Positions 16,792-31,640 of a DNA stretch of 53,081 bases are shown here, piece by piece. The stretch comes from Candidatus Oscillibacter pullicola (GTDB lineage Bacteria > Bacillota > Clostridia > Oscillospirales > Oscillospiraceae). Position numbers and translations under genes: made by a program. The DNA lies in assembly GCA_019118935.1 (NCBI GenBank), contig DWXY01000030.1, positions 1-53,081 of the forward strand. Reading direction: 5' to 3'. Within the stretch, counting starts at the first letter, position 1; each line of letters begins with the position of its first letter. The notes beneath the pieces are model-generated. The model did no database searches. It was not told where the DNA came from and saw only the letters and a program-made list of their open reading frames with translations.

Positions 16792-18159
16792 GTGGCAAGC
16801 AAAGAGCATGATTTTTCCGTCGGCAGCATTCCCCGCAACATCATTTCCCTGGCGCTGCCCATGACGGCCGCCCAGCTCATCAACGTGCTGTACAGCGTGG
16901 TGGACCGCATCTACCTGGGGCGGCTCCCCGGGCATCTGGCCCTGACGGGCCTGGGGCTGACGCTGCCCATCATCTCCATCGTGATGGGCTTCGCCAACCT
17001 GTGCGGCACGGGAGGCGCCCCCCTGTGCTCCATCTACCGGGGCAAGGGTGAGGAGGAAGAGGCCGAGCGGATCATGGGCAATGCCTTCACCCTGCTGCTG
17101 ATCTTTGGCGCCGCTGTCACGGGGGTGTTCCTGCTGTTCCGGCATCCCCTACTCTACCTGTTCGGCGCCAGCGACGCCACCTATCCCTATGCCGAGGCGT
17201 ACATGACCATCTATCTGCTGGGGACCGTCTTCGTCATGATCGGCCTGGGGATGAACCCCTTCATCACGTCTCAGGGCTTCGGCCGCACCGGGATGATGAC
17301 CGTGGGCCTGGGGGCAGTGGTCAACATCGTGCTGGACCCGGTCTTCATCTTCGCCCTGGACATGGGGGTGCGGGGCGCGGCGCTGGCCACCGTGATCGCC
17401 CAGGGCTGCTCCGCCGTGTGGGTGCTGAAGTTCCTCACCGGACGGAGGGCCATCCTGCGGCTCCGCCTGCGGAATCTGGCGCTGAGCGCCGGGCGGGTGA
17501 AGTCCATCGTGGCCCTGGGCCTGTCCGGCTTCTTCATGAATCTCACCAACAGTCTGGTGCAGGTGGTGTGCAACGCCACGCTCCAGGCATACGGCGGCGA
17601 CCTGTACGTGGGCGTGATGACCATCATCAACTCCCTGCGGGAGGTGTTCTTCATGCCGGTGCAGGGGCTGACCAACGGCGCCCAGCCGGTCACCGGGTAC
17701 AACTACGGCGCGGGCCGGTACAGCCGCGTCCGGAGCTCCATCCGCTTCAGCGTGGCGGTGACGGTTGGCTACGCCGCTGTCTTCTGGGCCGCCGCCATGC
17801 TGTTCCCCGGGCTTTTGATCCGGGTCTTCAACAGCGAGCCGGAGGTGGTGGCGGCCGGCATCCCCGCCCTGCGCATCTACTTCTGCCTGTTCATCCCCAT
17901 GTCCCTCCAGATGGCGGGGCAGGGTGTGTTCGTGAGCCTGGGGCGCTCCAAGCAGGCGGTCTTCTTCTCTCTGCTGCGCAAGGCCATCATCAACGCGCCG
18001 CTGACGGTCGTCCTGCCCATCTGGATGGGCACCACCGGCGTATTCGCGGCAGAGGCCGTCTCCCAGCTGGTGGGCGGCCTGGCCTGCAGCCTCACCATGT
18101 ATTTCACCGTGTACCGTCCCCTGGGCCGCCTGCCGGACCGCCCGCCGGAGAACAGCTGA
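16792..18159 (+). CDS. MATE-family efflux transporter 3
   Basis: 455 residues, GTG start at 16792 with GAGGAGGAG upstream. Typical features are ISLALPMTAAQLINVLYSVV, GTGGAPLCSIYRGKGEEEEA and MNPFITSQGFGRTGMMTVG. Third member of the putative marR-controlled operon, 44 bases behind transporter 2, with a strong terminator 58 bases after its stop. Confidence 0.9.
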   Translation: MASKEHDFSVGSIPRNIISLALPMTAAQLINVLYSVVDRIYLGRLPGHLALTGLGLTLPIISIVMGFANLCGTGGAPLCSIYRGKGEEEEAERIMGNAFTLLLIFGAAVTGVFLLFRHPLLYLFGASDATYPYAEAYMTIYLLGTVFVMIGLGMNPFITSQGFGRTGMMTVGLGAVVNIVLDPVFIFALDMGVRGAALATVIAQGCSAVWVLKFLTGRRAILRLRLRNLALSAGRVKSIVALGLSGFFMNLTNSLVQVVCNATLQAYGGDLYVGVMTIINSLREVFFMPVQGLTNGAQPVTGYNYGAGRYSRVRSSIRFSVAVTVGYAAVFWAAAMLFPGLLIRVFNSEPEVVAAGIPALRIYFCLFIPMSLQMAGQGVFVSLGRSKQAVFFSLLRKAIINAPLTVVLPIWMGTTGVFAAEAVSQLVGGLACSLTMYFTVYRPLGRLPDRPPENS

Positions 18160-18217
18160 GACCCGGCTGCCGCGCTGCCGTTCTCTCTCCCACTCCCACA
18201 GACCCGCGGGAAAAAGA

Positions 18218-18257
18218 GGGGCCGCTTTTGGAGGTTTTTCCAAAAGCGGCCCCCTTG
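18218..18257 (+). terminator. Terminator after MATE 3
   Basis: GGGCCGCTTTTGGA (18219-18232) pairs with TCCAAAAGCGGCCC (18239-18252) across a T-rich loop. It separates the marR-MATE1-3 unit from MATE 4. Confidence 0.8.
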
Positions 18258-18280
18258 CCTGTTCCGGCCCTCCGCACGTC

Positions 18281-18309
18281 TTGACAAACGGTTCCAGCCC
18301 GGCTATAAT
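18281..18309 (+). promoter_or_regulatory. Consensus sigma-A promoter of the MATE-DarA gene
   Basis: TTGACA (18281-18286), 17-base spacer, TATAAT (18304-18309): a perfect consensus promoter 75 bases before the start. MATE 4 is therefore an independent, probably strongly transcribed unit. Confidence 0.85.
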
Positions 18310-18383
18310 CTTGCCCGCAAGTCCCGGCCGCCCCCTGCGGGAGGCCGGAAGATCCCGGAACCTGTTAGGAGCACCGCCACACC

Positions 18384-20069
18384 ATGAGAGCATCCTCTGC
18401 ATACAGTCTCTTTGACACGGAGAGCGTCTGGGCCATCCTGATGCGGATCGCGCCTCCGGTCATGCTGGCCCAGCTGATCCAGGCCATGTACAACATCGTG
18501 GACAGCTATTTTGTGGGCCAGTTCTCCAGCGACGGCCTCACCGCCCTCTCCATCGTCTACCCTGTCCAGCTGATCGTCACCGCCATCGCCGTCGGCACCG
18601 GCGTGGGCGTCAATACCCTGATGTCCCGGTACGACGGCCAGGGGAACCACCACCTGGCGGACCGGACCGCCGGGACGGGGACGGTCCTGGCGCTGATCAG
18701 CTGGCTGATCTTCGCCGTATTGAGCGGCCTGCTGATGCGTCCCTTTGCCGCGGTCTCCACGGAGTCCTCCTCCGTGGCGGACCTTGCCGTGACATACGGC
18801 ACCATCGTCTGCGTGGGCAGTCCGGGGGTGTTTCTGGAGAGCACCTGGAGCAAGGTCCACCAGGCCCGCGGCAACATGCGCCTGCCCATGCTGGCCCAGA
18901 TCGCCGGCGCCGCGGCCAATATCGTGCTGGACCCGATCCTGATCTTCGGCCTGGGCCCGGCCCCGGCGCTGGGCGTGGCCGGTGCCGCCTACGCCACGGT
19001 GGCGGGCCAGGTGCTGGCAGCGCTCATCGTCGCCTCCGGATTCCGGAAGCCGCCCCCCATCCGGGTGTTCCGCTCCTATGCGGCCAAGATCTACCGGCTG
19101 GGATTCCCCTCCATCTTCATGCAGCTTCTCTTCACGGTCTACATCATGGCCCTGAACATGATCCTGGCCGGCTTCTCCGACGACGCCGTGACGGTCCTGG
19201 GCCTGTATTACAAGGTGCAGTCCTTCTTCTTCATCCCCCTCTCCGGACTCCAGACCTGCATCGTCCCCCTGCTGAGCTATACATATGCCAAGGGCGCCTA
19301 CGGCCGCTGCCGCCGGGTGGTGAAGGACTCCGTCCTGCTGGCCATGTCCTTCATGCTGGTGGGGATCGCCTGCTTCGAGCTGATCCCGGAACAGCTGCTG
19401 CGCATCTTCACCGCGGAGCCCGCGGTCCTGGAGATCGGCGTCCATGCCTTCCACATCATCGGCACCAGCTTTCTGCCCGCCGTGCTCTCCCTGATCCTGC
19501 CGGTCTTTTTCCAGGCCATCGGGGCGGCGCTGCCCAGCGTCCTGCTCTCCCTGACCCGGCAGATCTTCTGCCTGATCCCCGTATTCTGGCTCTTCTCCAG
19601 GATCGATCTGGCCTACACGTGGCTGGCCTTTCCCATTGCGGAGGTCGTGACTGGAGCGCTGGGCCTGTGCTTCTATCTCCACCGCATCCACATCTGGGAC
19701 CGCTACAAGGGCGCGGCCCTGAACCCCGAACGCAAAGGAGCGACTGCTATGAAACTCATCACCGCCATCGTCAACAGGCGGGACACCAGCGAGGTCTGCG
19801 CCGCCCTGACAGACGCCGGCTTTTACTTCACCCGCATGGCCTCCACCGGCGGTTTTCTCACTGGCGGCAACTCCACGCTGCTGATCGGCACGGAGGAGGA
19901 CCGGGTGCCCCAGGCCATCGCCATCATCCGCCAGAACTGCTCCCGCCGGACGGAGAAGATCTCCTCCAACGTGCAGCTGGCCACGCCCTCTGCGGCCTAT
20001 CCCACGGAGGTGACCATAGGCGGCGCCACGCTGTTCGTCTCCGATGTGACGCAGTTTGAAAAGATCTGA
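18384..20069 (+). CDS. MATE transporter fused to a cyclic-di-AMP receptor (DarA/PstA) domain
   Basis: 561 residues in one uninterrupted frame. Residues 1 to about 450 are a complete MATE transporter (RIAPPVMLAQLIQAMYNIVD, then FPSIFMQLLFTVYIMALNM). From Met 456 a full DarA/PstA domain (DUF970) follows: MKLITAIVNRRDTSEV, RMASTGGFLTGGNSTLLIG, PTEVTIGGATLFVSDV. Stand-alone DarA is about 109 residues and binds c-di-AMP as a trimer. The linker (NPERKGATA) is the translated ribosome site of what looks like an originally separate darA gene, so the MATE stop codon has been lost or both products are made. This would link a multidrug-type pump to the c-di-AMP signal that controls osmolyte and potassium balance. 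Confidence 0.88.
   Translation: MRASSAYSLFDTESVWAILMRIAPPVMLAQLIQAMYNIVDSYFVGQFSSDGLTALSIVYPVQLIVTAIAVGTGVGVNTLMSRYDGQGNHHLADRTAGTGTVLALISWLIFAVLSGLLMRPFAAVSTESSSVADLAVTYGTIVCVGSPGVFLESTWSKVHQARGNMRLPMLAQIAGAAANIVLDPILIFGLGPAPALGVAGAAYATVAGQVLAALIVASGFRKPPPIRVFRSYAAKIYRLGFPSIFMQLLFTVYIMALNMILAGFSDDAVTVLGLYYKVQSFFFIPLSGLQTCIVPLLSYTYAKGAYGRCRRVVKDSVLLAMSFMLVGIACFELIPEQLLRIFTAEPAVLEIGVHAFHIIGTSFLPAVLSLILPVFFQAIGAALPSVLLSLTRQIFCLIPVFWLFSRIDLAYTWLAFPIAEVVTGALGLCFYLHRIHIWDRYKGAALNPERKGATAMKLITAIVNRRDTSEVCAALTDAGFYFTRMASTGGFLTGGNSTLLIGTEEDRVPQAIAIIRQNCSRRTEKISSNVQLATPSAAYPTEVTIGGATLFVSDVTQFEKI
19734..19751 (+). promoter_or_regulatory. Internal ribosome site and ATG for free DarA domain
   Basis: AAAGGAG (19734-19740) stands 8 bases before an in-frame ATG (19749-19751) exactly where homology to DarA begins. 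A free 106-residue c-di-AMP receptor could therefore be translated in addition to the fusion. Confidence 0.6.
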
Positions 20070-20111
20070 GCCGCCCGCCACTCCGGCGGCCAGGCACAAG
20101 CAGGACGAAGC

Positions 20112-20150
20112 GCTCCGCCTCAGTGCATGCACTGAGGCGGAGCACTTTTT
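20112..20150 (+). terminator. 32-bp perfect palindrome terminator
   Basis: A perfect palindrome (20112-20143, centre TGCATGCA, arms GCTCCGCCTCAG/CTGAGGCGGAGC) is followed by ACTTTTTGCG. It lies between the ends of the MATE-DarA gene and the convergent apbE gene. Confidence 0.85.
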
Positions 20151-20163
20151 GCGTCAAGACCGA

Positions 20164-21114
20164 TCAGGCGGGGGTGAACGCCGCGCCCGGAGATGCGGCC
20201 ACAGTCCCATCCTCCCGTACGGCCACATATTCGATCATCTCGCCGCTGTCCCTGCGCAGCCGGTCCACCAGGGCGCCGCCCTCCTCTTCTCCCAGGATGA
20301 AAAAGGCAGTGGAGAGCAGGTCTGTGTAAACAGGCCGCGAAGACAGGATGGAGACGCTCTTCAGCGTCAGCGGCATGGGGTATCCGGTCCGCGGGTTCAG
20401 CAGATGGTGGTACACGGTCCCATTCTTCTGGAAGCTGTGCTCATACCAGGAGGATGTGGCGATGCCCGCGTCCTGGAGCTGCACCGTTCCAAACACCGAG
20501 CCGGTGTTGTCCGGGTCCCGGATCGCCACCTTCCACGGCCGGGCCCCGCCCTGCGCGTCCTGGTGCGCGCCGATCACAAACAGGTTCCCGCCGTAGTCCA
20601 GCACGGCCTGCCGGACGCCGCCCCGTCGCAGGCGGTCCACGGTCAGACCCAGAGCGAAGCCCTTTCCGGCTGCGCCCGGGTCCAAACCGATTCCAGAAAG
20701 ATCAAACGTCACGGTCCGCGTCTTCCGGTCCAGGCGGACGTGCTGATAGCCGACCCGGTCCAGCACCGCCTGGATGCGCTCCGCAGAGGGGATCCGGGGC
20801 GTCTGGGACAGAAAATCCCACAGCTTTACCACCGGCCCCACCGTGGGGTCGAATGCTCCGCCGGACAGGCGGCAGATCTCCAGGTTCTGCTCCAGAAAGG
20901 TGTACAGGGTCTCAGAGACCGGCACAGCCTCGCCGGGCCGGATGTCCCGGCAGAGCCTGGAGAGCTCTGAGTCGGGATCGAACATGCTGAGGGTGCGCTC
21001 CAGCCCATGGGCCTCCTCCTCGCACTGCTCCAGCAGCTGCTCCCCGTCCTCCGGGATTTCCGCCGCGATGCGGCAGAGGGTGTCGTACGCCAAAAACGCG
21101 CGGGTATGCTCCAT
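20164..21114 (-). CDS. apbE: FAD:protein FMN transferase ApbE, without signal peptide
   Basis: 316 residues with the full ApbE pattern: SMFDPDSELSRLCRD, GGAFDPTVGPVVKLWDF, LDPGAAGKGFALGLTVDRL, VLDYGGNLFVIG, YHHLLNPRTGYP and the Mg-binding YTDLLSTAFFILG. ApbE moves FMN from FAD onto a Thr or Ser of target proteins. Most ApbE proteins are lipoproteins or secreted; this one starts directly with MEHTRAFLAYDTL, with no signal or lipobox, so it should act in the cytoplasm. It is the last gene of the putative operon with three FMN-domain proteins, its likely targets. Confidence 0.92.
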   Translation of the reverse strand: MEHTRAFLAYDTLCRIAAEIPEDGEQLLEQCEEEAHGLERTLSMFDPDSELSRLCRDIRPGEAVPVSETLYTFLEQNLEICRLSGGAFDPTVGPVVKLWDFLSQTPRIPSAERIQAVLDRVGYQHVRLDRKTRTVTFDLSGIGLDPGAAGKGFALGLTVDRLRRGGVRQAVLDYGGNLFVIGAHQDAQGGARPWKVAIRDPDNTGSVFGTVQLQDAGIATSSWYEHSFQKNGTVYHHLLNPRTGYPMPLTLKSVSILSSRPVYTDLLSTAFFILGEEEGGALVDRLRRDSGEMIEYVAVREDGTVAASPGAAFTPA

Positions 21115-21141
21115 AACGGTTTTCCTTTCCGGTTCTTCTCT

Positions 21142-22083
21142 TTACTGGAAAACGCCGTCCTTGCGCATCTCTTCCAGGACGACCTTGGCCATCCGCAGGT
21201 AGTTGATGAACGCAGGATACATCGGCCGGTTCTTGGGATCCATATCCAGATGCTCGTGATCCGGGTTGGGATTGTCCCAGATCATGCCCATGTCCCGTCC
21301 GGCGGCGTGGGGCAGGCCGGTCAGATCCAGCATGTCCTGGGTGGCGCAGACCTTCAGGTTCAGGTTGTCCATCTGGGTGCGGAAGCCCACCAGGAAGGCG
21401 TGGCGGTCCCAGCCGGAGGGGAACGGATCCTCATAGGTGGGGCAGTCGTACTTAGACTGGCGGTAGTACTTCTTCAGCTCGGGGTGGACGATGTCCTCCT
21501 CGTTGTCCGCGAAGATCTCGTCGAAGCGGCAGGAGAGGATCTTGCCGTTCTCCACCACCACCTTCAGCCAGCCGGTGAGGCCGTAGCCATAGTCCTCGGA
21601 ATAGCTGTACAGCTTCTTGGAGGAGGGCTTGTCCAGCTCCTTGTCCAGCTTGGCCGCGAAGGTCAGCAGCTTCTTCACGCTGCCGGAGGCACTGGCCACC
21701 AGGTCGAAGTCTCCGCTCAGGCTCTGCTTCTCCAGCATCTGCTTCTCCACGTACTGCATGCCCATGGTCAGCACGGAGCCGGCCTTCTGCATCCGGGGCT
21801 TCGTGTACTGCCAGAAGCTGTAACTGGAGCGGCGCTTGGAGATGCCCTGGTACAGGTGGTTGTAATAGGAGGGGGCCGTGATCTCGTTGAGCTCCACAAA
21901 GATCAGCTTGCCGTCGGCCTTCACCGCCTCCACGATGCCCAGGTGGCCCGGATCGGCGGGGAACTCCCCCTCCACGCCGGGATAGTAGGGCGGGAACCGC
22001 TCCTCGATCCGATAGTAGTCGCCCTTCAGCATCCCCTTGGGGGGCTGGACAGACCAGACGGGCTTCTTTCCTGCGTTATCCAT
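21142..22083 (-). CDS. Tandem FMN-binding-domain protein A (degenerate flavinylation motif)
   Basis: 313 residues, no signal peptide. Two FMN_bind-like halves: the first around MLKGDYYRIEERF, GHLGIVEAVKADGKLIFVEL and FDLVASASGSVKKLL; the second around YGLTGWLKVVVENGKIL, CRFDEIFADNEEDI and KKYYRQSKYDCPTY, ending with MLDLTGLP. In paralogues B and C the first half carries TGAS-x-S, the ApbE acceptor motif; here it reads A-S-A-S-G-S (residues 130-135), so the acceptor Ser 133 remains but Thr-Gly are lost. The motifs DEIFAD and YRQSKY are shared by all three. Function unknown; probably a cytoplasmic flavoprotein. Confidence 0.8.
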   Translation of the reverse strand: MDNAGKKPVWSVQPPKGMLKGDYYRIEERFPPYYPGVEGEFPADPGHLGIVEAVKADGKLIFVELNEITAPSYYNHLYQGISKRRSSYSFWQYTKPRMQKAGSVLTMGMQYVEKQMLEKQSLSGDFDLVASASGSVKKLLTFAAKLDKELDKPSSKKLYSYSEDYGYGLTGWLKVVVENGKILSCRFDEIFADNEEDIVHPELKKYYRQSKYDCPTYEDPFPSGWDRHAFLVGFRTQMDNLNLKVCATQDMLDLTGLPHAAGRDMGMIWDNPNPDHEHLDMDPKNRPMYPAFINYLRMAKVVLEEMRKDGVFQ

Positions 22084-22095
22084 GTTCGTTCCTCC

Positions 22096-23091
22096 TTACT
22101 TCACGGCGCCGTCCTTGACCATCTCGTCGTGGACGATCTTGGCCAGGCGCAGATAGTTGTTCCACACGGGAGAGCGGGGACGGGTGACGGAGCGGGCGGT
22201 GGCGTCGCTGTTGGAGACGAGCGCTACGTCGTCCTTGTGGGGCTTGTCCCACACCACGCCCATGTCCGGGCCCTCCACGCAGGGCAGGCCGGTGATGTCG
22301 AACATGTCCTGCGTCTCGCAGACCTTCTTGTTGATGGCGTCGGACTGGTCCTTGAAGCACACCAGCCAGGCGTGCCGGTCCCAGCCGGAGGGGAACGGAT
22401 CCTCATAGGTGGTGGAGAAATACTTGGACTGGCGGTAGAACTGCTTCAGGTCGTCGTAGACGATGTCCTTGGTGTGGTCGGCGAAGATCTCGTCATAGAA
22501 GCACTTGACGATCTTGCCGTCCTCCACCACCACCTGGAGCCAGCCGGTGATGCCGTAGCCGTAATCCTCGGTGTAGCCGTAGTAGCGCTGCTTCTTGTGG
22601 TTGGGGTCCTTCCGCTGGGCGGACACGTCGTCCTTCAGGCCGATCATGTTCTTCATGGAGAAGGAGGCACCGGTCAGCAGGTCATAATCGGCGTCCAGGT
22701 CCTGCTTTTCCAGGATCTGATCCTCCACATACTTGAAGCCGTTGGCCAGCACCCGGCCGTAGGCCACGCTGCGGCGCTTGTCATGGAAGTCCTGGAAGAA
22801 CTGGAACTCCGTGCGGCGCTTGCTGACGTTCTGGAAGTGGCGGACATAGTAGTTGCCCATGGTGGTCTCGTTGAACTCGGCGAAGGCGATCTTGCCGTCG
22901 TCGTCAAACACCACGTCCAGCTCGCCCTTGTGGCCGGGATCGCCCCAGCGGCCGCTGTACCGCAGCTCGGCGTGATAGTAATCACCCTTGACCAGGCCCT
23001 TGTACTGGGGCTGCGCGGTCCAGTCGATCAGCTCGCTCTCGTTGTCCTCATGCCAGGGGCCCAGCCCCAGCCATCTCGTCTTGTCAGTCAT
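22096..23091 (-). CDS. Tandem FMN-binding-domain protein B, predicted ApbE target
   Basis: 331 residues from ATG 23091 (GGAGG upstream; the longer frame lacks homology). First FMN_bind half: LVKGDYYHAELRYSG, KGELDVVFDDDGKIAFAEFN, and DLLTGASFSMKNMIGL, in which T140-G-A-S143-F-S matches the flavinylation motif, with Ser 143 as predicted covalent FMN site. Second half: ITGWLQVVVEDGKIVKCFYD, EIFADHTKDI, QFYRQSKYFSTTYE, DMFDITGLP (motif lost). No export signal. Gap of 12 bases to protein A. Likely an electron carrier or reductase subunit in the cytoplasm; partner and substrate unknown. Confidence 0.82.
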   Translation of the reverse strand: MTDKTRWLGLGPWHEDNESELIDWTAQPQYKGLVKGDYYHAELRYSGRWGDPGHKGELDVVFDDDGKIAFAEFNETTMGNYYVRHFQNVSKRRTEFQFFQDFHDKRRSVAYGRVLANGFKYVEDQILEKQDLDADYDLLTGASFSMKNMIGLKDDVSAQRKDPNHKKQRYYGYTEDYGYGITGWLQVVVEDGKIVKCFYDEIFADHTKDIVYDDLKQFYRQSKYFSTTYEDPFPSGWDRHAWLVCFKDQSDAINKKVCETQDMFDITGLPCVEGPDMGVVWDKPHKDDVALVSNSDATARSVTRPRSPVWNNYLRLAKIVHDEMVKDGAVK

Positions 23092-23123
23092 GTGAATTTC
23101 CTCCTTGTATTTTATTGAATCCT

Positions 23124-24107
23124 TCACTCGGAAATGGATGGTTCATGAAGGGCGCCAGCCCGGCAGCAGGCGCAGAAGTGGCCGTTGCCGAAGCCCCGCA
23201 GCGCCAGATCCCGGCCGGTGCAGCCCTCCTGGGCGTACAGGCAGCGCTTGGCGAAGCGGCAGCCCGGCTCCGGGTCAATGGGGCTCTGAAGCTCGCCGAT
23301 GAGCTTCACCCGCTGCATCTTCTGCCGGCTGCTGGGGATGGGGATGGCAGACAGCAGGGCCTGGGAATAGGGGTGCATCGGCTGGCGGAACAGCTCCGCG
23401 GAATCCGCCGTCTCCACCAGCTGGCCCAGGTACATCACCGCGATCTTGTCGGAGAAGAACTTCACCACCGACAGGTCATGAGTGATAAAGAGATAGGTCA
23501 GGTGGAACTCCGCCTGCAGGTCCTTCAGCAGGTTCAGGACCTGGGCCTGGATGGACACGTCCAGCGAGGACACCGGCTCGTCGCAGACGATGAACTGCGG
23601 CTTGAGCGACAGGGCCCGGGCGATGCCCACCCGCTGGCGGCGGCCGCCGTCCAGCTCGTGGGGATAGGCGTTGAACAGCCGGGCAGAGAGGCCCACCACG
23701 TCCATCAGCCGGGAGACCTCCTTGTCCAGCTCCGTGCGGCTGTGGACCTTTCCGTGAATCCGCAGCGGTTCGCCGATGATCTCCCCAATGGACATCCGGG
23801 GATTCAGGGAGGAGAACGGGTCCTGGAAAATGATCTGCAGATCCTTGCGCAGGTCGTGAAGCTGCTGCTTGTTCATCTTGCAGATGTCCTGTCCGTTGAA
23901 CAGGATCTCGCCGCTGGTGGCCTGGTGCAGGCCCAGGATCAGCCGGCCGATGGTGGACTTGCCGCAGCCGGACTCGCCCACCAGGCCCAGCGTCTCGCCT
24001 CTCCGGATGGAGAAGTTGACGCCGTCCACCGCATGGAGGGTGCCGGTGGGGCTTTTGAAGTACTTCTTCAGGTCCCGGACTTCCAGGATCACATCCTTAT
24101 CTGCCAT
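23124..24107 (-). CDS. dppF: Oligopeptide/dipeptide-type ABC transporter ATPase (OppF/DppF-like)
   Basis: 327 residues. Walker A GESGCGKST (from residue 44), Q-loop IIFQDPFSSLNP, signature HELDGGRRQRVGIARAL, Walker B FIVCDEPVSSLD and switch His in LFITHDL. The C-terminal cysteine cluster (CRFAKRCLYAQEGC) is the iron-sulfur or zinc-type motif of Opp/Dpp ATPases. The signature has Asp for the usual Ser and Arg for Gln (LDGGR), a variant I recall from other Clostridia DppF proteins. Starts inside the end of the partner ATPase gene (11-base overlap). Confidence 0.92.
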   Translation of the reverse strand: MADKDVILEVRDLKKYFKSPTGTLHAVDGVNFSIRRGETLGLVGESGCGKSTIGRLILGLHQATSGEILFNGQDICKMNKQQLHDLRKDLQIIFQDPFSSLNPRMSIGEIIGEPLRIHGKVHSRTELDKEVSRLMDVVGLSARLFNAYPHELDGGRRQRVGIARALSLKPQFIVCDEPVSSLDVSIQAQVLNLLKDLQAEFHLTYLFITHDLSVVKFFSDKIAVMYLGQLVETADSAELFRQPMHPYSQALLSAIPIPSSRQKMQRVKLIGELQSPIDPEPGCRFAKRCLYAQEGCTGRDLALRGFGNGHFCACCRAGALHEPSISE

Positions 24108-25170
24108 GTCGCACCTCCTCCATCAGTTCGGGGGACTCGAAAACGCCCTGGTGGGCCAGACAGCGCACCATCTGGGTGCCGCCGACGCCGGTCATCTCCG
24201 GCTTGTGGGTACGGCAGGCCTCCGTTGCGTAGGGGCACCGGGGCGCAAAGGCGCAGCCCTCCGGCAGCTCCGTGGGATCCGGCATCTGGCCCTGGATGGG
24301 CTTGAGCTTCTCCGCCGTCTCATCCAAAGACGGGATGGAGCCGAACAGGCCGATGGTGTAAGGGTGATGGGGGTGGTCAAACACCTCCGCGATGGTGCCG
24401 CTCTCCACGATCTCGCCGGCGTACATGATGGCCACCCGGTCGCAGACCTGGGCCACGACGCCCAGGTCGTGGGTGATCAGCAGCAGGGAGGTGCGGAGCT
24501 TTTCCTTCAGCTCGTTCATCAGTTCCAGCACCTGGGCCTGGATGGTCACGTCCAGGGCGGTGGTGGGCTCGTCCGCCAGAATCAGCTCCGGTGAGCAGGC
24601 GATGCTCATGGCGATGACCACCCGCTGCTTCATGCCGCCGGAGAACTGGTGGGGATACTCGTCATAGCGGGCCCGGGGGATGCCCACCATCTCCAGCATG
24701 TCGCCGGCCTTTCTCCGGCCCTCCTCCTTGCTGCACTTTTCATGCTGGTGGATGACCTCCGCGATCTGGTCGCCCACGGAGTAGACCGGGTTCAGGCTGG
24801 TCATGGGGTCCTGGAAAATCACCGAGATCTTGCTGCCGCGGATCTCCCGCAGGCGGGCGGGCTTGGCCTGGAGCATGTCCTCGCCCTCGAACCAGATCTC
24901 GCCGCCCATGATCTTTCCGGGCGGGTCCGCGATGAGCCGCAGGACCGACAGGGCCGTGGTGGTCTTGCCGGCGCCGGTCTCGCCCACCAGGCCCAGGCTC
25001 TCGCCCTTTCCGATGGTCAGATCCAGGCCGTTGACGGCGTAGACCACGTCCTCGTCGGTGTGGTACTCCACCCGCAGGCCGCGGATATCCAGCAGGGCCT
25101 CCGGGGCCTGCGCGGAGGGGATGGGCTCCTTCTCTGGCAGAGCGGTCTTGTGCTGCTTTTTCTCTTCCAT
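24097..25170 (-). CDS. dppD: Oligopeptide/dipeptide-type ABC transporter ATPase (OppD/DppD-like)
   Basis: 357 residues. Walker A GETGAGKTT (from residue 63), VIFQDPMTSLNP, signature FSGGMKQRVVIAMSIA, Walker B LILADEPTTALD, LLITHDLGVVAQ, and the C-terminal Cys motif CAFAPRCPYATEAC typical of OppD/DppD. Energises uptake with the DppF partner. A short N-terminal extension (about 25 residues, Lys/Glu/Pro-rich) precedes the usual start. GAGG upstream; 16-base gap to the permease gene before it. Confidence 0.92.
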   Translation of the reverse strand: MEEKKQHKTALPEKEPIPSAQAPEALLDIRGLRVEYHTDEDVVYAVNGLDLTIGKGESLGLVGETGAGKTTTALSVLRLIADPPGKIMGGEIWFEGEDMLQAKPARLREIRGSKISVIFQDPMTSLNPVYSVGDQIAEVIHQHEKCSKEEGRRKAGDMLEMVGIPRARYDEYPHQFSGGMKQRVVIAMSIACSPELILADEPTTALDVTIQAQVLELMNELKEKLRTSLLLITHDLGVVAQVCDRVAIMYAGEIVESGTIAEVFDHPHHPYTIGLFGSIPSLDETAEKLKPIQGQMPDPTELPEGCAFAPRCPYATEACRTHKPEMTGVGGTQMVRCLAHQGVFESPELMEEVRHGR

Positions 25171-25186
25171 GTGGTGTCCTCCCTCC

Positions 25187-26074
25187 TCAGTTCTTCAGCT
25201 TGGGGTCCAGGGCATCCCGCAGGCCGTCTCCCAGCAGGTTCAGGGAGAGGATGGTCAGCATGATGGCAAGGCCCGGGAACGCGCATACCCACCAGGCCGC
25301 CCGGAAATACTGCCGGCCGGTGCTGACCATGGAGCCCCACTCCGGTGTGGGCGGGCTGATGCCCAGGCCGATGAAGCTGAGGCTGGCGATGGCCAGGATG
25401 GACCCGGCGATGGACAGCGTAGCCTGCACGATGATGGGGGCCATGCAGTTGGGCAGGATGTGCTTGAGGATGATGCGCTTGTCGCTGGCGCCGATGGCGC
25501 GGGCCGCCTCGATGTACTCCTCGTTCTTGATGGTCAGCACGGCGGAGCGGACGATCCGGGCAAAGGGCGGGATGTTGGAGATGCTGATGGCCAGCATCAT
25601 ATTGGTGACGCTGGTGCCCATGGCGGACACCAGGGCGATGGACAGCAGGATGCTGGGGATCGCCAGGAAGATGTCCATGACACGCATGATGACATCATCC
25701 ACCCGGCGGCTGCCATAGCCGGCGATCGCGCCCAGCAGCCCGCCCACCACCGTGGCGATGGCAATGGTGGCAAAGGCCACCGGCAGGGAGATCCGGGCGC
25801 CGTGGACGATCCGGGCCAGGATGTCGCGGCCCACCTCGTCAGTGCCCAGCCAGTGCTCGGCAGAGGGGGGCTGGAGCTTCAGGGATGCATTCTGCTGAAT
25901 CACCAGTGTTTCGTAATCAAAAAACACATCGGCAAAGACGGCGAAGAAGATAATGATTGCCAGAATGATGAGTCCCAGAACGGCCATCTTGTTTTTCTTC
26001 AGGCGGCGCCATACTGCGGCGGCCTGGGACTTTTTCTTGTTCTTGTTTTTCACTTTCCCAGTCATCCGCATCAC
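25187..26074 (-). CDS. dppC: ABC transporter permease, DppC/OppC-like
   Basis: 295 residues, an N-terminal anchor helix (KMAVLGLIILAIIIFFAVFA) preceded by a Lys-rich cytoplasmic start, then the BPD_transp domain with LGTDEVGRDILARIVHGARI and the EAA loop EYIEAARAIGASDKRIILKH. C-terminal GDGLRDALDPKL is the standard end of the DppC family. Overlaps the dppB stop by 4 bases (ATGA), so translation is coupled. Confidence 0.93.
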   Translation of the reverse strand: MMRMTGKVKNKNKKKSQAAAVWRRLKKNKMAVLGLIILAIIIFFAVFADVFFDYETLVIQQNASLKLQPPSAEHWLGTDEVGRDILARIVHGARISLPVAFATIAIATVVGGLLGAIAGYGSRRVDDVIMRVMDIFLAIPSILLSIALVSAMGTSVTNMMLAISISNIPPFARIVRSAVLTIKNEEYIEAARAIGASDKRIILKHILPNCMAPIIVQATLSIAGSILAIASLSFIGLGISPPTPEWGSMVSTGRQYFRAAWWVCAFPGLAIMLTILSLNLLGDGLRDALDPKLKN

Positions 26075-27009
26075 CTCTTTGCCGTTTTGTACTGGGCCCG
26101 GATTCTGGGGTCCAGAAATGCGTACAGGATATCAATGCACAGATTGATGATGGTGAACATCGTGGCCAGCACCAGCACGCAGGCCACCACCACGGGCGTG
26201 TCCTTCAGGCCGATGCGGTCCACCAGCAGCCGGCCGATGCCGGGCCAGGAGAACACCGTCTCCACCAGTACCGCGCCGCCCAGGGAGAAGCCGAACTGCA
26301 GTCCCACCGTGGTGACAATGGGGATCATGGCGTTGCGCAGGGCGTGGCGGATGGTGATGACGCTCTCCTTCAGGCCCTTGGCCCGGGCGGTACGGATGTA
26401 ATCCTGCCGGATCGTTTCCAGCATGGAGGAGCGGGTCATGCGGGTGATCATCGCCAGGGAGTTGGCGCTGAGGGTGATGGCCGGCAGCACCAAGGCGCCC
26501 CAGGTCTCAAAGTTGGAGGATGGGAACCACCCCAGCCCTGCGGCGAAGATCACGATCAGCATGAGGCCCAGCCAGAAGTTCGGCATGGAGACGCCGAACA
26601 GGGCTCCCACCATGGAGATGTTATCCACCGCCGAATACTGGTGGGTGGCGGAAATCACGCCCAGGGGAATTCCGATCAGAATGGCAAACAGCATGGCGCA
26701 GGCCGACAGCAGGATGGTATTGGGCAGTCGGGCGGCGATCTCCGCCGCCACCGGGTTTCCAGTGCTGTATGAGGTGCCGAAATCGCCCTGGACTGCGTTG
26801 ACAATGAATCGGCCGTACTGGACCAGGAAGGGATCGTCCAGTCCCAGTTCCGCCTGCAGGGCGTTATAGGCCTCTTCGGAATAATTGTCGCCCAGCATCA
26901 TCTGCACCGGATCGCCAGGCGTAAAGCTCAGGATGGTATAGACAATAAAGCTGACACCCAGCAGCACCGGGATCAGCATGAGCAGCCGTTTGAGAATAAA
27001 ACGGTACAT
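26071..27009 (-). CDS. dppB: ABC transporter permease, DppB/OppB-like
   Basis: 312 residues. Standard DppB start (MYRFILKRLLMLIPVLLGVS), TPGDPVQMMLG, and the EAA loop DYIRTARAKGLKESVITIRH; ends with YAFLDPRIR. Six hydrophobic segments. Pairs with the DppC protein to form the channel. Located 88 bases after the binding-protein gene, from which it is separated by a strong hairpin. Confidence 0.93.
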   Translation of the reverse strand: MYRFILKRLLMLIPVLLGVSFIVYTILSFTPGDPVQMMLGDNYSEEAYNALQAELGLDDPFLVQYGRFIVNAVQGDFGTSYSTGNPVAAEIAARLPNTILLSACAMLFAILIGIPLGVISATHQYSAVDNISMVGALFGVSMPNFWLGLMLIVIFAAGLGWFPSSNFETWGALVLPAITLSANSLAMITRMTRSSMLETIRQDYIRTARAKGLKESVITIRHALRNAMIPIVTTVGLQFGFSLGGAVLVETVFSWPGIGRLLVDRIGLKDTPVVVACVLVLATMFTIINLCIDILYAFLDPRIRAQYKTAKR

Positions 27010-27046
27010 CTGTCACTCTCCTTTTTCCGTGACGCAAGTTTGCGCA

Positions 27047-27076
27047 AGCGGGCGGCGGCTTTTGCCGCCGCCCGCT
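27047..27076 (-). terminator. 13-bp hairpin between binding-protein and permease genes
   Basis: AGCGGGCGGCGGC (27047-27059) and GCCGCCGCCCGCT (27064-27076) with a 4-base loop. On the minus strand no long T run follows, so it probably acts as a partial terminator or mRNA stabiliser giving more binding protein than permease, as known in other ABC importer operons. Confidence 0.6.
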
Positions 27077-27097
27077 CACTGGAATGCCTGAATGCGC

Positions 27098-28639
27098 TTA
27101 TTCAAAATAGGTGCCGTTGATGTAGTGGGACTTGCCCGGATACAGGCCGAAGCCCTTCACATTGGACTGCATGCCGGCGTTCAGGTGCTCCACCGCCAGG
27201 GGGACCAGGGGCGCGGCCTCCGCCACTTTGCTCTGGATCTCCGCATACAGCTCCATGGCACGCTCAGTGTCGGTGGTGGTGCTGGCCTCGTCGATCATGG
27301 CGTCCACCTCGGGCGTGGTCCAGAAGCAGCGGTTGCCGGAGGGGCCCAGAGCCTCCGTGTGGTACATGGACCGCAGCATGGAGTCGGGGTCGATGGAGGT
27401 CTTGGACATGATGAACATGTCATGGGCGCCGTTGCCGGTCTCGGACGTGAACTGGCCGTTCTCCAGGGTCTTGACCTCGGCGTTGATGCCCACCTGGCGC
27501 AGCTGCTCCTGGATGACCACGGCGGAGTCCCGCATCACCTGGCTGTCGGAGCACCAGAGGGTGGTGGAGAAGCCGTCGGGATAGCCGGCCTCGGCCAGCA
27601 GCTCCTTGGCCTTCTCCACGTTGTAGGAGTAGTCGGAGCAGTCGGAGACGTAGCCGTCCACGCTGGGGGGCAGCATGGTGTAGTTGGCGGGCGTGGCCTC
27701 GCCGCTGAACACCAGGTCGATGTAGCCCTGGGGATCCAGCGCGTAGGCGACAGCCTGCCGGACCTTCTCGTTGTCAAAGGGGGCCTTCTGCACGTTCATG
27801 CCCACGAACCACACGGTAGTGCTGGGAGAGGTCAGGGTGGTGACAGACTCGTTGCCCGCCAGGCTCTCCAGGTCGGTGATGCCCAGGTCATAGGCCAGAT
27901 CCACCTCGCCGGTCTCCAGGCCGATGGTGCGGTTCAGCGCCTCGGGGATGGTGCGGAAGATGATGCGCTTGACGGCCGGAGCGCCGCCCCAGTAGTCCTC
28001 AAATGCCTCCAGGACCACGTCGCCGCCCAGCTCCCAGGAGACGAACTTGAAGGGGCCGGTGCCCACGGGGTGCTTGTTGAACTCCTCCGCGCTGGTATCT
28101 GCGCTCTTGCAGATGATGGAGGCCGCGTCCAGGCTCAGGCGGTACAGCAGCGCGTTGAAGGGCTCGGAGGTCTTGATGGTGACAGTGTAGTCATCATCGC
28201 AGGTAATGCTGTCGATAATCAGGTAGTTGTAGTTCACGCCGGGGTTGGCGATGCAGCGCTCCAGGCTGTACTTGACATCCTCGGAGGTCATCTCCTCGCC
28301 GTTGTGGAACTTGACGCCCTGACGCAGATGGAACACGGTGGTGGTGTCGTCGATGACCTCCCAGCTTTCCGCCAGGGCAGGCACCAGGTTCATGTCGGTG
28401 TCCATCATCACCAGGCGGTCAAACATCTGGGTGGTGACCCGATAGGTTCCGATGGATGCTTGGACCATGGGGTCCATGTAGGTGGGGGACTCCGGGATGG
28501 CAACGATCAGGGTATCCTTGGTGCCGGTATCACCGGCACCATCTGAGGTAGTCGAGCTGGAACCGGTGGGGCCGCAGCCGGCCAGCATCCCGCAGAGCAG
28601 GAACATTGCGGTGAACAGTGCGAAAACTCTCTTCTTCAT
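27098..28639 (-). CDS. Lipoprotein substrate-binding protein, family 5 (DppA/OppA type)
   Basis: 513 residues. Lipoprotein signal with lipobox LAGC (Cys 22), a Ser/Thr-rich spacer and an SBP_bac_5 domain (ESPTYMDPMVQASIG, ESWEVIDDTTTVFHLRQGVK, FHNGEEMTSEDVKYSLER, KHPVGTGPFKFVSWE). It delivers a peptide or other organic solute to the DppBCDF complex encoded downstream. The ligand cannot be predicted: this family also binds nickel chelates, opines, glutathione and sugars. Its neighbours on both sides are FMN-domain proteins, suggesting the solute feeds a flavin-dependent reaction. ATG with CAGGAGGAG upstream. Confidence 0.92.
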   Translation of the reverse strand: MKKRVFALFTAMFLLCGMLAGCGPTGSSSTTSDGAGDTGTKDTLIVAIPESPTYMDPMVQASIGTYRVTTQMFDRLVMMDTDMNLVPALAESWEVIDDTTTVFHLRQGVKFHNGEEMTSEDVKYSLERCIANPGVNYNYLIIDSITCDDDYTVTIKTSEPFNALLYRLSLDAASIICKSADTSAEEFNKHPVGTGPFKFVSWELGGDVVLEAFEDYWGGAPAVKRIIFRTIPEALNRTIGLETGEVDLAYDLGITDLESLAGNESVTTLTSPSTTVWFVGMNVQKAPFDNEKVRQAVAYALDPQGYIDLVFSGEATPANYTMLPPSVDGYVSDCSDYSYNVEKAKELLAEAGYPDGFSTTLWCSDSQVMRDSAVVIQEQLRQVGINAEVKTLENGQFTSETGNGAHDMFIMSKTSIDPDSMLRSMYHTEALGPSGNRCFWTTPEVDAMIDEASTTTDTERAMELYAEIQSKVAEAAPLVPLAVEHLNAGMQSNVKGFGLYPGKSHYINGTYFE

Positions 28640-28676
28640 CGTACTCCTCCTGACGTGGTGGTGATATATTTCTGAA

Positions 28677-28694
28677 ACCGCCGCCCCCGGCGGT
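28677..28694 (-). terminator. Hairpin between FMN protein C and binding-protein gene
   Basis: ACCGCCG (28677-28683) pairs with CGGCGGT (28688-28694) around a 4-base loop. On the minus strand it is followed by TTTC. Possible weak terminator or attenuator inside the operon. Confidence 0.4.
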
Positions 28695-28713
28695 CACATT
28701 CCTGGTTGTGCGC

Positions 28714-29562
28714 TCAGCGCAAGCCGTCGGCCGCCAGGGCCTCCTCCATCCGCCTTGCCAGCTCCAGATAGTTGTCCCATTCCTTCGCCCGCTTGGGCTC
28801 CTCCGTGAAGGGAAGCCCGGTCAGGTCGGTGAGGCTCTGGGTCTCCAGCACCCGGGCGCTGAGCAGGTCGAAGATGCTGTTGAACCCGGCGCCGATGGTG
28901 GAGATGTAGTCGGGGCAGTGGTATTTGGACTGCCGGTAATAGGGCTTGAGCTCCGGGTCCTCAATCTCCTCCTGCCGGTCGGCGAAGATCTCGTCGTAGG
29001 CGCAGGAGATGATCTTTCCCGCCTCCAGCACGATCTGCAGCCGCCCGGTGACGCCGGGCTCCACCGCCTGGGCAAGGCCGTAATACACCTGGCCGGAGGG
29101 CTTGTCCAGCCGCCCCGCGATCTCCTCCGCCAGCGGGAGCATAGACCGCTTGATGCTGTTGGAGGCGCCGGTGAGCAGGTCAAACTCGCCTGTGAGGCGG
29201 TTCTCCGCCACCATCTGCTCTTCCAGATGGGTCAGGCCGTTCACCAGCACCACACCGGACTTGGCGGTTCGCTCCTTGGTGGCCTGCAGAAAGCCGTAGT
29301 CGGACAGCCGCTTGGAAACGCCCTGGTACCGCCTAATGTAATAGGTGGGGTTGTTGATCTCGTTGAACTCCACCATCTGCAGCGTTCCGTCCCGCCGGAC
29401 CACTTCCAGAATGCCGTGATACCCCTTGTCCCCCGGGAAATGCGGGGCAAACCAATTCTCGGCCCGGTAATAGTCTCCCTTTACCAGCCCCATGGGCGGC
29501 TGCACCGTCCAGAACAGCCGGTCCAGCACGTCAACGGACTTTTCGCGCTTCTTCTCTGCCAT
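28714..29562 (-). CDS. Tandem FMN-binding-domain protein C, predicted ApbE target
   Basis: 282 residues from ATG 29562 (GGAAGGAAGAGAGG upstream); first gene of the operon. Same two-half layout as A and B: LVKGDYYRAENWF, GILEVVRRDGTLQMVEFN, FDLLTGASNSIKRSMLPL with the acceptor motif T131-G-A-S134-N-S; then VTGRLQIVLEAGKIISCAYD, EIFADRQEEIEDPELKPYYR, QSKYHCPDY and LTDLTGLPF. It is shorter than B after YRQSKY, lacking the DPFPSGWDRH segment. No signal peptide. Together with ApbE at the other end of the operon it marks a flavinylated cytoplasmic system. Confidence 0.82.
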   Translation of the reverse strand: MAEKKREKSVDVLDRLFWTVQPPMGLVKGDYYRAENWFAPHFPGDKGYHGILEVVRRDGTLQMVEFNEINNPTYYIRRYQGVSKRLSDYGFLQATKERTAKSGVVLVNGLTHLEEQMVAENRLTGEFDLLTGASNSIKRSMLPLAEEIAGRLDKPSGQVYYGLAQAVEPGVTGRLQIVLEAGKIISCAYDEIFADRQEEIEDPELKPYYRQSKYHCPDYISTIGAGFNSIFDLLSARVLETQSLTDLTGLPFTEEPKRAKEWDNYLELARRMEEALAADGLR

Positions 29563-29616
29563 GCCTCTCTTCCTTCCCCTCATTTTGATCCGCATTCCAC
29601 CGCCGGGGTGCGGATC

Positions 29617-29645
29617 TTGTATTCTTTGAAAATTGGCGCTATAAT
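29617..29645 (+). promoter_or_regulatory. Possible plus-strand promoter with short terminator-like leader
   Basis: TTGTAT (29617-29622), 17 bases, TATAAT (29640-29645) point toward the LysR gene. About 15 bases downstream CGCCC (29663-29667)/GGGCG (29676-29680) followed by CTTTGTTTT forms a weak terminator-like hairpin. An 8-bp inverted repeat GATCCGCA/TGCGGATC (29587-29616) lies directly upstream. Confidence 0.4.
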
Positions 29646-29700
29646 GATTGACAGAATCTGAACGCCCTTCTGACCGGGCGCCTTTGTTTTGCCTGTTACG

Positions 29701-29709
29701 ATTATAACA
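29701..29709 (-). promoter_or_regulatory. Extended -10 promoter for the FMN/ABC/apbE operon
   Basis: On the minus strand TGTTATAAT forms an extended -10 element about 140 bases before the ATG of FMN protein C; no strong -35 is visible, which fits an activator-dependent (LysR) promoter. Confidence 0.45.
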
Positions 29710-29801
29710 TGCTCCCCCCGCTGTCGGATTATAGGGGATTTTGTTAAGCCTTCGCTATTTGGGATTAGGTCCCTCCGCCGTTTTGAGAAAGAGAGCGCGA
29801 C

Positions 29802-30710
29802 ATGAACACAGAACACCTCGTCTATATCCTGGAAGCGTACAAGTGCGGCTCTGTCAACAAAGCCGCCCGAAACTGTTATATCTCCCAGTCCCATCTCAGC
29901 ACCATCATCAAAAATGTGGAGCAGGAGATCGGCTATCCCCTGTTCCACAGGACGGCCAACGGCATCACCGCTACGCCGGAGGGACTGATCTTCATGAGCC
30001 ACGCTGAGAAGATCGTCACCGAGCGCAACAACATCCAGAAGATCCCGGAATCCATGTCCGAGAGCGACAGCCTCTCCATCATCTGCGCCCGCTCTGCCTT
30101 TGTGCTCCAGTGTTTCTTTGATTACAAAAACTGCTACCCCAACCTGAACAGAACCCACGACAAATTCCTGGAGGCCGGTCTCCGGGAAAACCTGAAAAAC
30201 GTCGTGGCCCAGACCTGCAGGCTGGGCATCCTGGTGCTGTTCGAACAGGTCATCCCCAAGTACATGGACCTGGCGGACCAGTACAATCTGGAGCTGACGA
30301 TCCTCCAGCGCTCCATCCCCGTCACCGCCCTGATGTCCAAGTCCCATCCCCTGGCCAACTCCGCCCGCGTCTCTCTCAAGGATCTGGCGGGGTACCCGTT
30401 CATCGCCGACGCGCACATCGATCCGGATGATACGCTGGATGTGCTGGGACTCCAGAGCCACACGGACCTGCTGTACATCTGTGACCGCGGCACGATCTTC
30501 GACGCGGTCCGCAAGGGCAATTACATTGCCATCGGCATCAGCATCCCGGAGGAGGACGCCCGGCGGATGGACTGCGTCTGCTGCCCCATCGCGGACGGCG
30601 CCCCCATGGCCGTGGCCCTGCTGCATTCCCGGACCTTTACGCTCCGCCCCAGAGAAAAGCACTTCATTCGGTATCTGACCGACCGCCTGCACAAGCGCTA
30701 TCCCGGATAA
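29802..30710 (+). CDS. LysR-family regulator, probable regulator of the flavinylation operon
   Basis: 302 residues, ATG 29802. N-terminal HTH (EHLVYILEAYKCGSVNKAAR, ISQSHLSTIIKNVEQEIGYP) and a LysR substrate-binding domain with a less usual central part (FDYKNCYPNLNRTHDKFLEA). Divergent from the operon starting with FMN protein C, with about 240 bases between starts, the classical arrangement for a LysR activator sensing the transported compound or its product. Confidence 0.88.
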   Translation: MNTEHLVYILEAYKCGSVNKAARNCYISQSHLSTIIKNVEQEIGYPLFHRTANGITATPEGLIFMSHAEKIVTERNNIQKIPESMSESDSLSIICARSAFVLQCFFDYKNCYPNLNRTHDKFLEAGLRENLKNVVAQTCRLGILVLFEQVIPKYMDLADQYNLELTILQRSIPVTALMSKSHPLANSARVSLKDLAGYPFIADAHIDPDDTLDVLGLQSHTDLLYICDRGTIFDAVRKGNYIAIGISIPEEDARRMDCVCCPIADGAPMAVALLHSRTFTLRPREKHFIRYLTDRLHKRYPG

Positions 30711-31640
30711 ACGGAGTACCGCTTCCCGCAGGGCGGCCCACCGGCGGATTTCGGCCCGCATCGGCACATATCCCCCCTGACAGGAAAGCTGAAAGCATTG
30801 GGGACGGCGTTTCGCGCGCTTTTCAAATACGACGATGCCAAAGAAACCGTACACTGGTTATTTGACCCTCTGGAACTCTGGGAAGAGGTGGGCACTTCTC
30901 TCACCCAGAACACATTTGGGGGAGCAAGGAATCCCCAATCCACGGGCAAGGACACCAAAATCTTCCTTTCTAATTACCGAATTGTGGAGACGCAGAGCCT
31001 GCGAAAATTGCTGCAAAAGCAGAAATGAGGATATTCGGGGCTACAAATCCGGTTTTGAGGAACGCTGTCTTGTCATCCAAAGCGGACACTTGGGCCTTCA
31101 ACCCCTCAATAGACCCCGAGCCGCTCTTTGGCCCATAACCAGAATTCGGAAATACGCAGTCCTGCCGCCGCATACAGTTCCATTGAGACGGAATATGTCA
31201 ACAGCCCCCTCAATGTGCAGCGTCTATATTCCGGCATTTGCAAACAAGGCCGCCCTTCTGAGAAGGGCGGCCTTGTTTTATCACTTCGCCCCCCAAATTG
31301 CCGGCGCCGGCATTCCAGGGGCCGTATGGAAGTCGATCGCTCTGTTGCCTGTTCTGTGCCGCAGCGGCCCTTTCAGGCGGAACAACGCCGGTCTGCTGAG
31401 ACCTTCCAGCCCGTTGTATAGGGCGTTGTACGGCGGCAGAGGGTTTCTGCATCCTCCGGCGCCACACGGCTGCCGGACTGCGCTTTCGTTTCCCTGACCA
31501 TGGTCCGCAGGCGCCTCGGGTTCTCCAGCATGGGGGCAGGGGCGGAGCATGTTCTCATTGTCAGGCTGTCGGCCGTGGGAGGCCAGAAAAATGCGGGATT
31601 TCAGAACATCCGCCAGCGTGCGGTCCCGTATGTTCACATT
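30711..31640. other. No recognisable gene
   Basis: About 930 bases after the LysR gene. Frames up to 220 codons are open on the plus strand but have no family resemblance, no matching ribosome site and unlikely amino-acid composition (rich in R, P, W, C). The only structure I see is the hairpin at 31242-31279. Probably decayed DNA. Confidence 0.6.
31242..31279. terminator. Bidirectional terminator-like hairpin
   Basis: AAACAAGGCCGCCCTT (31242-31257) pairs with AAGGGCGGCCTTGTTT (31263-31278), followed by TA on the plus strand and preceded by A-rich sequence, so it could stop transcription both ways. No gene directly upstream is recognisable; likely left from a lost gene. Confidence 0.65.

Follow-up and report, generated by a model that had tools for sequence, protein, structure and literature searches.

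A putative solute import-and-redox operon with predicted flavinylated proteins of tandem FMN_bind fold and a signal-less ApbE in Candidatus Oscillibacter pullicola

The window analysed here is a stretch of 53,081 nucleotides from contig DWXY01000030.1 of Candidatus Oscillibacter pullicola (assembly GCA_019118935.1; G000:C11 in our own numbering, in which related loci are also cited as L and genomes as G). From 29595 down to 20164 it carries a run of nine minus-strand genes in the order FB3-SBP-B-C-D-F-FB2-FB1-ApbE, namely three paralogous proteins with tandem repeats of the FMN_bind fold (FMN, flavin mononucleotide; proteins FB1, FB2 and FB3), a solute-binding protein (SBP), two permeases (B, C) and two ATPases (D, F) of an ATP-binding cassette (ABC) importer, and the FMN transferase ApbE, with a gene for a LysR-type regulator diverging from the run. 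A preliminary description made from the letters of this DNA had given the positions and gene content of this unit, all of which agree with the open reading frame positions and a Pfam scan. Intergenic gaps in the run do not exceed 88 bp, the distance from B to SBP, and there are overlaps between three neighbouring gene pairs, so that the genes from FB3 to ApbE likely form a single transcript. A scan of positions 20000-31000 for sigma-70-type promoters returned no site, with 1.9 expected, and the 10 terminator-like sites of the same scan (5.9 expected) were not used.

All components of the Dpp/Opp-type importer were matched by Pfam: the family-5 solute-binding lipoprotein (27098-28639, minus strand like the whole run; SBP_bac_5, PF00496, E 7.5e-99, with a lipobox-like LLCGMLAGC at its N-terminus), the DppB/OppB-type permease (26071-27009; BPD_transp_1, PF00528, plus PF19300), the DppC/OppC-type permease (25187-26074; PF00528 plus PF12911), and the DppD/OppD-type and DppF/OppF-type ATPases (24097-25170 and 23124-24107; each ABC_tran, PF00005, plus oligo_HPY, PF08352). 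The best-fitting models are OppF (E 5.2e-117), OppD (E 2.1e-107), Opp4C, Opp2B and GsiB, of which only Opp2B, matched by the DppB/OppB-type permease, lies above its curated cut-off among the rows shown (352.4 bits, cut-off 350), OppF and OppD being under theirs. The nearest PDB entry to the SBP is 5u4o (E 4.3e-95), followed by 1uqw, YliB (E 1.6e-65); its PDB relatives comprise an unnamed SBP, YliB, a heme/AI-2-binding protein and DppA, from which no ligand can be picked. The LysR-type regulator (29802-30710, plus strand) likewise has both expected domains, HTH_1 (PF00126, E 8.5e-16) and LysR_substrate (PF03466, 1.8e-08), and the region between it and FB3 (29596-29801) contains a block aligned in common with L003 and L056, TTCGCTATTTnnGATTAG. 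A lysR match diverging from the run is also present at L003, L005, L047 and L056, and not at L004.

FB1 (21142-22083), FB2 (22096-23127) and FB3 (28714-29595, the first gene of the run) are clearly related, FB1 being 51% identical to FB2 and 46% to FB3; FB2 starts at a GTG codon, with an in-frame ATG 12 codons further in. The preliminary description had called them FMN_bind proteins, which stands for the fold of both repeats and fails for Pfam membership, as none of the three has any Pfam family. Their best Pfam matches lie under cut-off (E 0.18 and 0.53), and PF04205 gave no match on them at E up to 1 and none on their contig in a search of the genome, so FMN_bind is not visible in them by Pfam sequence search; a related lipoprotein at L010 scores 16.9 bits against PF04205, whose cut-off is 22. 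Up to E 1 the profile of the family finds just one PDB entry, 3O6U, with an E-value of 0.0038 for the whole sequence and only 0.11 for the best stretch. Reading the fold from sequence alone was abandoned, with no Pfam family, a weak PplA match only and an FB2 phmmer search of the PDB at chance level (best E 0.1). Comparison with solved FMN_bind proteins nevertheless found the FMN_bind fold in both repeats, so that a different fold, which would have spoken against the preliminary description, was not encountered, and the two repeats are related to each other (hhalign, 93% global and 85% local). A phage origin was also considered and rejected: PHROGs gave two weak matches to FB3 (best E 0.0023) and none to FB2, and there was no viral fold match at E <= 0.001.

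The acceptor motif of ApbE substrates is given as D-x-x-[S/T]-G-A-[S/T] (PMC12052999). FB2 and FB3 carry it as DLLTGAS, its last Ser being the predicted site of flavinylation (residue 155 in FB2), and FB1 carries the degenerate DLVASAS. The TGAS-x-S motif noticed earlier in two paralogues is TGASFS in FB2 and TGASNS in FB3, with ASASGS in FB1; DEIFAD and YRQSKY are indeed common to all three, and are found in exported relatives as well (e.g. L018, L013). The acceptor motif is confined to repeat 1, the matching place of repeat 2 being occupied in FB1-3 by D-[IL]-T-G-L-P. To follow these positions across the family, 271 sequences were gathered, and 23 with too little core were dropped before the tree was built; the homologue listings cover 120 of 351 and 120 of 162 matches. 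The remaining 248 rows (198 database proteins, 47 open reading frames of loci and the 3 window proteins) include 242 distinct sequences and further near-duplicates; L045 repeats L004, and its FB3 was left out together with the FBs of L021 and L026-L028, the latter four being lipoprotein-like (2.05-2.31 by the hydropathy rule given below). Repeat 2 shows [ST]GA[ST] in only one of the 248 rows. In repeat 1 the full motif is present in 43/53 rows of the FB2 clade, 31/48 of the FB3 clade, 30/41 of the Hungatella type, 28/55 of the exported group and 0/51 of the FB1 clade. Its Gly is kept in 52/53, 48/48, 41/41, 55/55 and 0/51 rows, respectively, and the acceptor Ser/Thr in 51/53 (FB2), 48/48 (FB3) and 41/41 (Hungatella type), with an acceptor Ser in 51/51 FB1 rows; a Ser/Thr two positions further on occurs in 52, 47 and 41 rows of the FB2, FB3 and Hungatella-type sets. 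Rows that depart from the motif include some of the FB3 clade and exported group with Ala at the first S/T, six of the FB2 clade with His and 10/41 of the Hungatella type in which the Asp is missing. Changing the Gly to Ala in a Klebsiella target is reported to lower flavinylation to about half (PMC12052999), and FB1 may therefore be a poor substrate of ApbE or none at all.

The apbE gene (20164-21114) encodes a FAD:protein FMN transferase (FAD, flavin adenine dinucleotide) of 316 amino acids (PF02424, E 5.5e-71; PDB ApbE 4xdt, E 1.1e-41) that keeps the motifs DPGAAGKG, HHLLNPRTG and DLLSTA. Location was called with a hydropathy rule of our own (the hydropathy maximum of 10-residue stretches within the N-terminal 60 residues) rather than with SignalP. 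By this rule the reported lack of signal peptides was confirmed for ApbE (0.92), FB1 (1.24), FB2 (-0.42) and FB3 (0.57), against 2.5 for the SBP lipoprotein; neither the FB proteins nor ApbE thus show the signal peptide or lipidation site that marks an extracytosolic system. The FB tree splits an exported group of 55 rows from the 193 others with a support of 1.0, only four of the latter (P0130, P0158, L011 and L003) being labelled exported; we attribute the label of L003 to a start-codon artefact and regard the L011 protein (Vagococcus) as a genuine lipoprotein. The ApbEs follow the same division. A hydrophobic N-terminus is absent from 12/12 ApbEs of cytosolic FB loci (highest value 1.46), as from that of the window, and present in 21/21 of exported-type loci (lowest 1.91; Shewanella, Ferrimonas and one record titled Marinobacter); those of L004, L005 and L008, whose called starts were over-extended, were scored from the homologous start (1.07, 0.92 and 1.26). 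In the ApbE tree, built with 11 of the available exported ApbEs and without the split ApbE of L047, the 12 signal-less proteins (the window's and 11 others) stand on one side of a split from the 11 exported ones with a support of 0.999. The two other ApbEs of the window's genome (C125 and C115) both read as lipoproteins. The window ApbE thus belongs to a signal-less lineage paired with cytosolic FBs. Within the motif D-x-G-x-x-[AG]-K-G, G-K-G occurs in 12/12 signal-less and A-K-G in 11/11 exported ApbEs, and G-K-G is possibly a sequence marker of cytosolic ApbE. The ApbE gene lies about 7 kb from FB in L075 and L076, and that of L047 (4194-5137) is split over two reading frames, a broken gene or a sequencing error.

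The window's genome also has two RNF-like clusters (G000:C45 and G000:C115, L001 and L002; named by eye), each with a PF04205 protein bearing DAITGAT. In L012-L032 (Shewanella, Ferrimonas and the record titled Marinobacter) the FB protein is an exported lipoprotein with an additional N-terminal FMN_bind domain (by Pfam in L018), next to an ApbE that is exported too; L018 and L013 add genes for a sensor kinase and a response regulator (with a PhnD-type sensor by Pfam in L018) and L018 and L021 a porin-like gene (by Pfam in L018), so that this type looks like a sensor-controlled periplasmic respiratory module. In L010, L046 and L057 an FB lipoprotein directly follows a response-regulator-like gene, with a sensor kinase also in L010 and L046 (by Pfam in L046) and no ApbE match in the stretch covered.

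The window-type gene set is found in five genomes: that of the window, G700 (L003), G730 (L056, one contig), G368 (L004) and G1171 (L005). FB3 is the first gene in three of these loci and the eighth in L004 and L005, where the order is SBP-B-C-D-F-FB2-FB1-FB3-ApbE; the set has therefore survived a rearrangement, and the lack of conservation that would have undermined the preliminary description was not observed. The SBP gene of L056 (13375-14909) is split over two reading frames, again a broken gene or a sequencing error. At E <= 1e-10, in overlapping samples of which those of phylum, family, genus and class include the window's own genome, the FB family occurs in 3/398 genomes of the phylum, 3/300 of the family, 3/61 of the genus and 1/391 of the class, as well as in 5/397 of the family of Hungatella effluvii and 2/45 of that of G386; lipoprotein forms occur in G386, G576 and G755. 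A metagenome-assembled genome named Anaerolineaceae has FB3-like, FB1 and FB2 genes under the tags VB029_07070, 07075 and 07080, among the matches listed. Beyond the operon, a convergent MATE-like gene faces the run, the operon is adjoined at 13960-20069 by four consecutive MATE-like transporter genes (names given by eye throughout), and L056 has homologues of MATE1 and MATE2 at the matching position.

By plain count, ABC importer genes are present in all 13 cytosolic FB loci (the window, L003-L009, L047, L056 and L074-L076). In 11 of them the importer genes belong to the co-directional run itself, and in L075 and L076 they are on the other strand. The importer is of the Dpp type with a family-5 SBP in five loci (the window, L003-L005 and L056) and of the SBP_bac_1 type in seven (L006-L009 and L074-L076; assigned in L006, L008, L009 and L076 by homology to domain-scanned loci), L047 showing only a family-5 SBP. 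Around the FB genes of 26 exported-type loci, a search for homologues of the SBPs and permeases of these loci, and of no other importer families, found none within 5 kb, L048 and L057 being short; L011 has an SBP of 20% identity at 5.2 kb, and in L048 an ATPase was matched at a distance of 3.6 kb.

In eight related loci (L006-L009, L047, L074, L075 and L076) FB is accompanied by PyrK-like and PyrD-like genes. The PyrD-like profile matches 1ep1_A (E 1e-54), and the proteins differ from PyrD in residues around the active site. The PyrK-like profile matches 5ksw_B (E 1.2e-10), and the four cluster cysteines are kept in 8/8 rows. Two further stretches of PyrK, LRRPIS and GGGIGVPP, have roles in FAD and NAD binding. 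LRRPIS is not kept, W-x-x-P-x-x aligning to it, and the GGGxG of GGGIGVPP is kept in 0/8 rows, L074 retaining two of the Gly and L006 one. FB and the PyrK-like protein are a single protein in L075 (539 residues) and L076 (527 residues). A search limited to 7996 scored candidates found this fusion in the five protein clusters P0121 to P0125, which have lengths of 476-536 residues and 66-100% identity over 88-98%; P0121 is itself the protein of Hungatella effluvii. The fusion, along with the loss of the cofactor stretches, suggests that the predicted covalent FMN of FB replaces PyrK's own FAD/NAD side. L047 links this type with that of the window, as the locus comes from the window's own family and has a divergent lysR as well. 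In L074 (5183-7565) genes for a FAD_oxidored protein (PF12831) and a GDSL-type hydrolase adjoin FB, PyrK-like and PyrD-like, and hint at the substrate of that variant.

Taken together, these observations make a solute-inducible import-and-redox operon, in which FB2 and FB3 are electron carriers for the conversion of the imported solute, the reading we favour, at a probability of about 0.55. The LysR regulator would sense the solute and the importer, of established Dpp/Opp family, would take it up. The dedicated cytosolic ApbE would attach FMN, by way of its phosphate, to the final Ser of the DLLTGAS motif of FB2 and FB3, as motif, fold and ApbE pairing indicate. Each of these two proteins, built of paired FMN_bind domains and predicted to carry a single flavin, would then be a soluble carrier in reducing or oxidizing the compound taken up; FB1, its motif Gly lost, is probably a partner subunit that carries little flavin or none. 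Among relatives, neighbourhood and fusion suggest that the carriers exchange electrons with the PyrK-like [2Fe-2S] subunit and the PyrD-like FMN enzyme. The preliminary description had flavinylated carriers process the imported compound; the electron-carrier role seems probable, while in the eight related loci the enzyme is likely the separate PyrD-like protein with its PyrK-like subunit, joined to FB in two of them. This pair is lacking in the window type, where FB1-FB2-FB3 would either act together as the reductase or depend on an oxidoreductase encoded elsewhere. A wider reading, possible although we doubt it, is that these systems form a new class of cytosolic redox module in which covalently flavinylated tandem FMN_bind proteins stand in for the FAD/NAD(H) part of a complex resembling dihydroorotate dehydrogenase B and couple an ABC-imported compound to the electron pools of the cell, FB1-FB2-FB3 of the window being a stand-alone flavinylated reductase, an enzyme of FMN_bind domains only.

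Several points weigh against an import-and-redox operon. A dedicated PyrK-like protein has no match in G000, G700 or G730, and in G368 and G1171 it gives only a 40-position iron-sulphur match beside an ordinary PyrD. The dedicated PyrD-like protein is absent from the window-type genomes, whose best PyrD scores 168-178 bits (two pieces of 120 and 43 in G730; 177.7 for the one PyrD of the window's genome) against 530-592 for dedicated copies; the window's genome is 91% complete, and the single-contig G730 (97%) gives the same negative. The full motif fails in 10/53 FB2-clade and 17/48 FB3-clade rows, FB1 is without the canonical motif in 5/5 window-type loci, and FB proteins are rare and patchily distributed, also inside the genus. 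Relatives carry importers of different families, which makes a single solute common to all cytosolic FB loci unlikely. The location of the FB proteins is that given by the hydropathy rule, and the flavin adduct and the electron-carrier activity are predictions from sequence.

Among the alternatives, the one that fares best, unlikely as it is, holds that FB and ApbE form a general cytosolic flavin electron-transfer unit and that the importer is a passenger or imports something unrelated, such as nutrient peptides. The varying importer family (family-5 SBP with Dpp, family-5 SBP in L047, SBP_bac_1 type) would fit this, and since such bacteria carry many ABC importers, some co-location with FB is to be expected. 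A chance passenger is harder to reconcile with importer genes in 13/13 cytosolic loci, mostly co-directional, with the 26 exported-type loci in which no homologous SBP or permease (the only families sought) lies within 5 kb, and with importer genes sitting between FB3 and FB2 in the window. Less likely still is a cytosolic counterpart of the ApbE-dependent reductase of Klebsiella, in which the flavinylated proteins would do no more than supply an ordinary reductase whose gene lies elsewhere. A signal-less ApbE is reported to be needed for the flavinylated soluble fumarate reductase of K. pneumoniae (PMC12052999), and according to the authors of PMC8238504 cytosolic flavinylation undoubtedly occurs, with many such proteins likely in cytosolic electron transfer; FB1-3, however, have no fumarate-reductase-like domain by Pfam, and what was found next to them or their relatives are importer genes and PyrK/PyrD-like ones. 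A structural or sensory role, in which the FB proteins would hold FMN without a covalent bond or lack it altogether, with ApbE serving another target, is very improbable despite the Gly missing from 51/51 FB1 rows and the near-absence of [ST]GA[ST] from repeat 2, given the conserved acceptor and +2 Ser/Thr of the FB2, FB3 and Hungatella-type clades, an ApbE location that tracks that of FB, and the placement of the genome's two classical FMN_bind proteins on other contigs.

An import-and-redox operon of this kind would mark a solute-conversion route in anaerobes that has so far had no assignment. ApbE flavinylation has been discussed mostly as an extracytosolic device: one study removed all genes that had neither signal peptide nor lipidation site, leaving cytosolic flavinylation out (PMC8238504), and the main role of the modification has been argued to be the prevention of flavin loss outside the cell (PMC11334425). 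A cytosolic carrier lineage with its own signal-less ApbEs raises other purposes for the covalent bond, and the FB-PyrK fusion, as a concrete partner, points to a way for a covalent flavin to take the place of a dissociable cofactor within a known class of enzymes. The tie between such proteins and a redox enzyme pair in related loci hints at a pathway not yet described: among the papers listed by a literature search at title and abstract level, outside subscription papers and bioRxiv, none dealt with the gene set of the window or with pairs of cytosolic FMN_bind domains beside PyrK or an importer.

The system nevertheless resembles several known ones in part. FMN-bind2, an FMN_bind variant of about 160 residues, is found in pairs with two flavinylated sites and serves extracytosolic electron transfer (PMC11334425); the FB proteins are likewise two FMN_bind-fold repeats of about 130-170 residues, and are set apart from that published description by the lack of signal peptides in FB1-3 and by the single acceptor site, in repeat 1. 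PplA of Listeria and the 'major membrane immunogen' lipoproteins are also FMN-binding electron-transfer proteins: FB3 matches the NCBIfam PplA model weakly (E 0.015, 14.5 bits, cut-off 325 bits), and at least three FB relatives among the matches listed are named 'major membrane immunogen', but PplA is, by its NCBIfam name, an extracellular lipoprotein. The Klebsiella pneumoniae system shares a signal-less ApbE working in the cytosol (PMC12052999), its target being a fumarate reductase, whereas the predicted targets in the window are tandem FMN_bind proteins without other known domains, accompanied by an importer. As in the Dpp, Opp and Gsi peptide importers, SBP, B, C, D and F are all in the window, although among the rows shown only its Opp2B match passes a model cut-off and the sequence does not reveal the substrate. 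Dihydroorotate dehydrogenase B, finally, consists of PyrD and PyrK, and the related loci carry PyrD-like and PyrK-like partner genes; they depart from it in PyrK-like proteins without LRRPIS and GGGIGVPP, and the window's genome in being without the dedicated pair.

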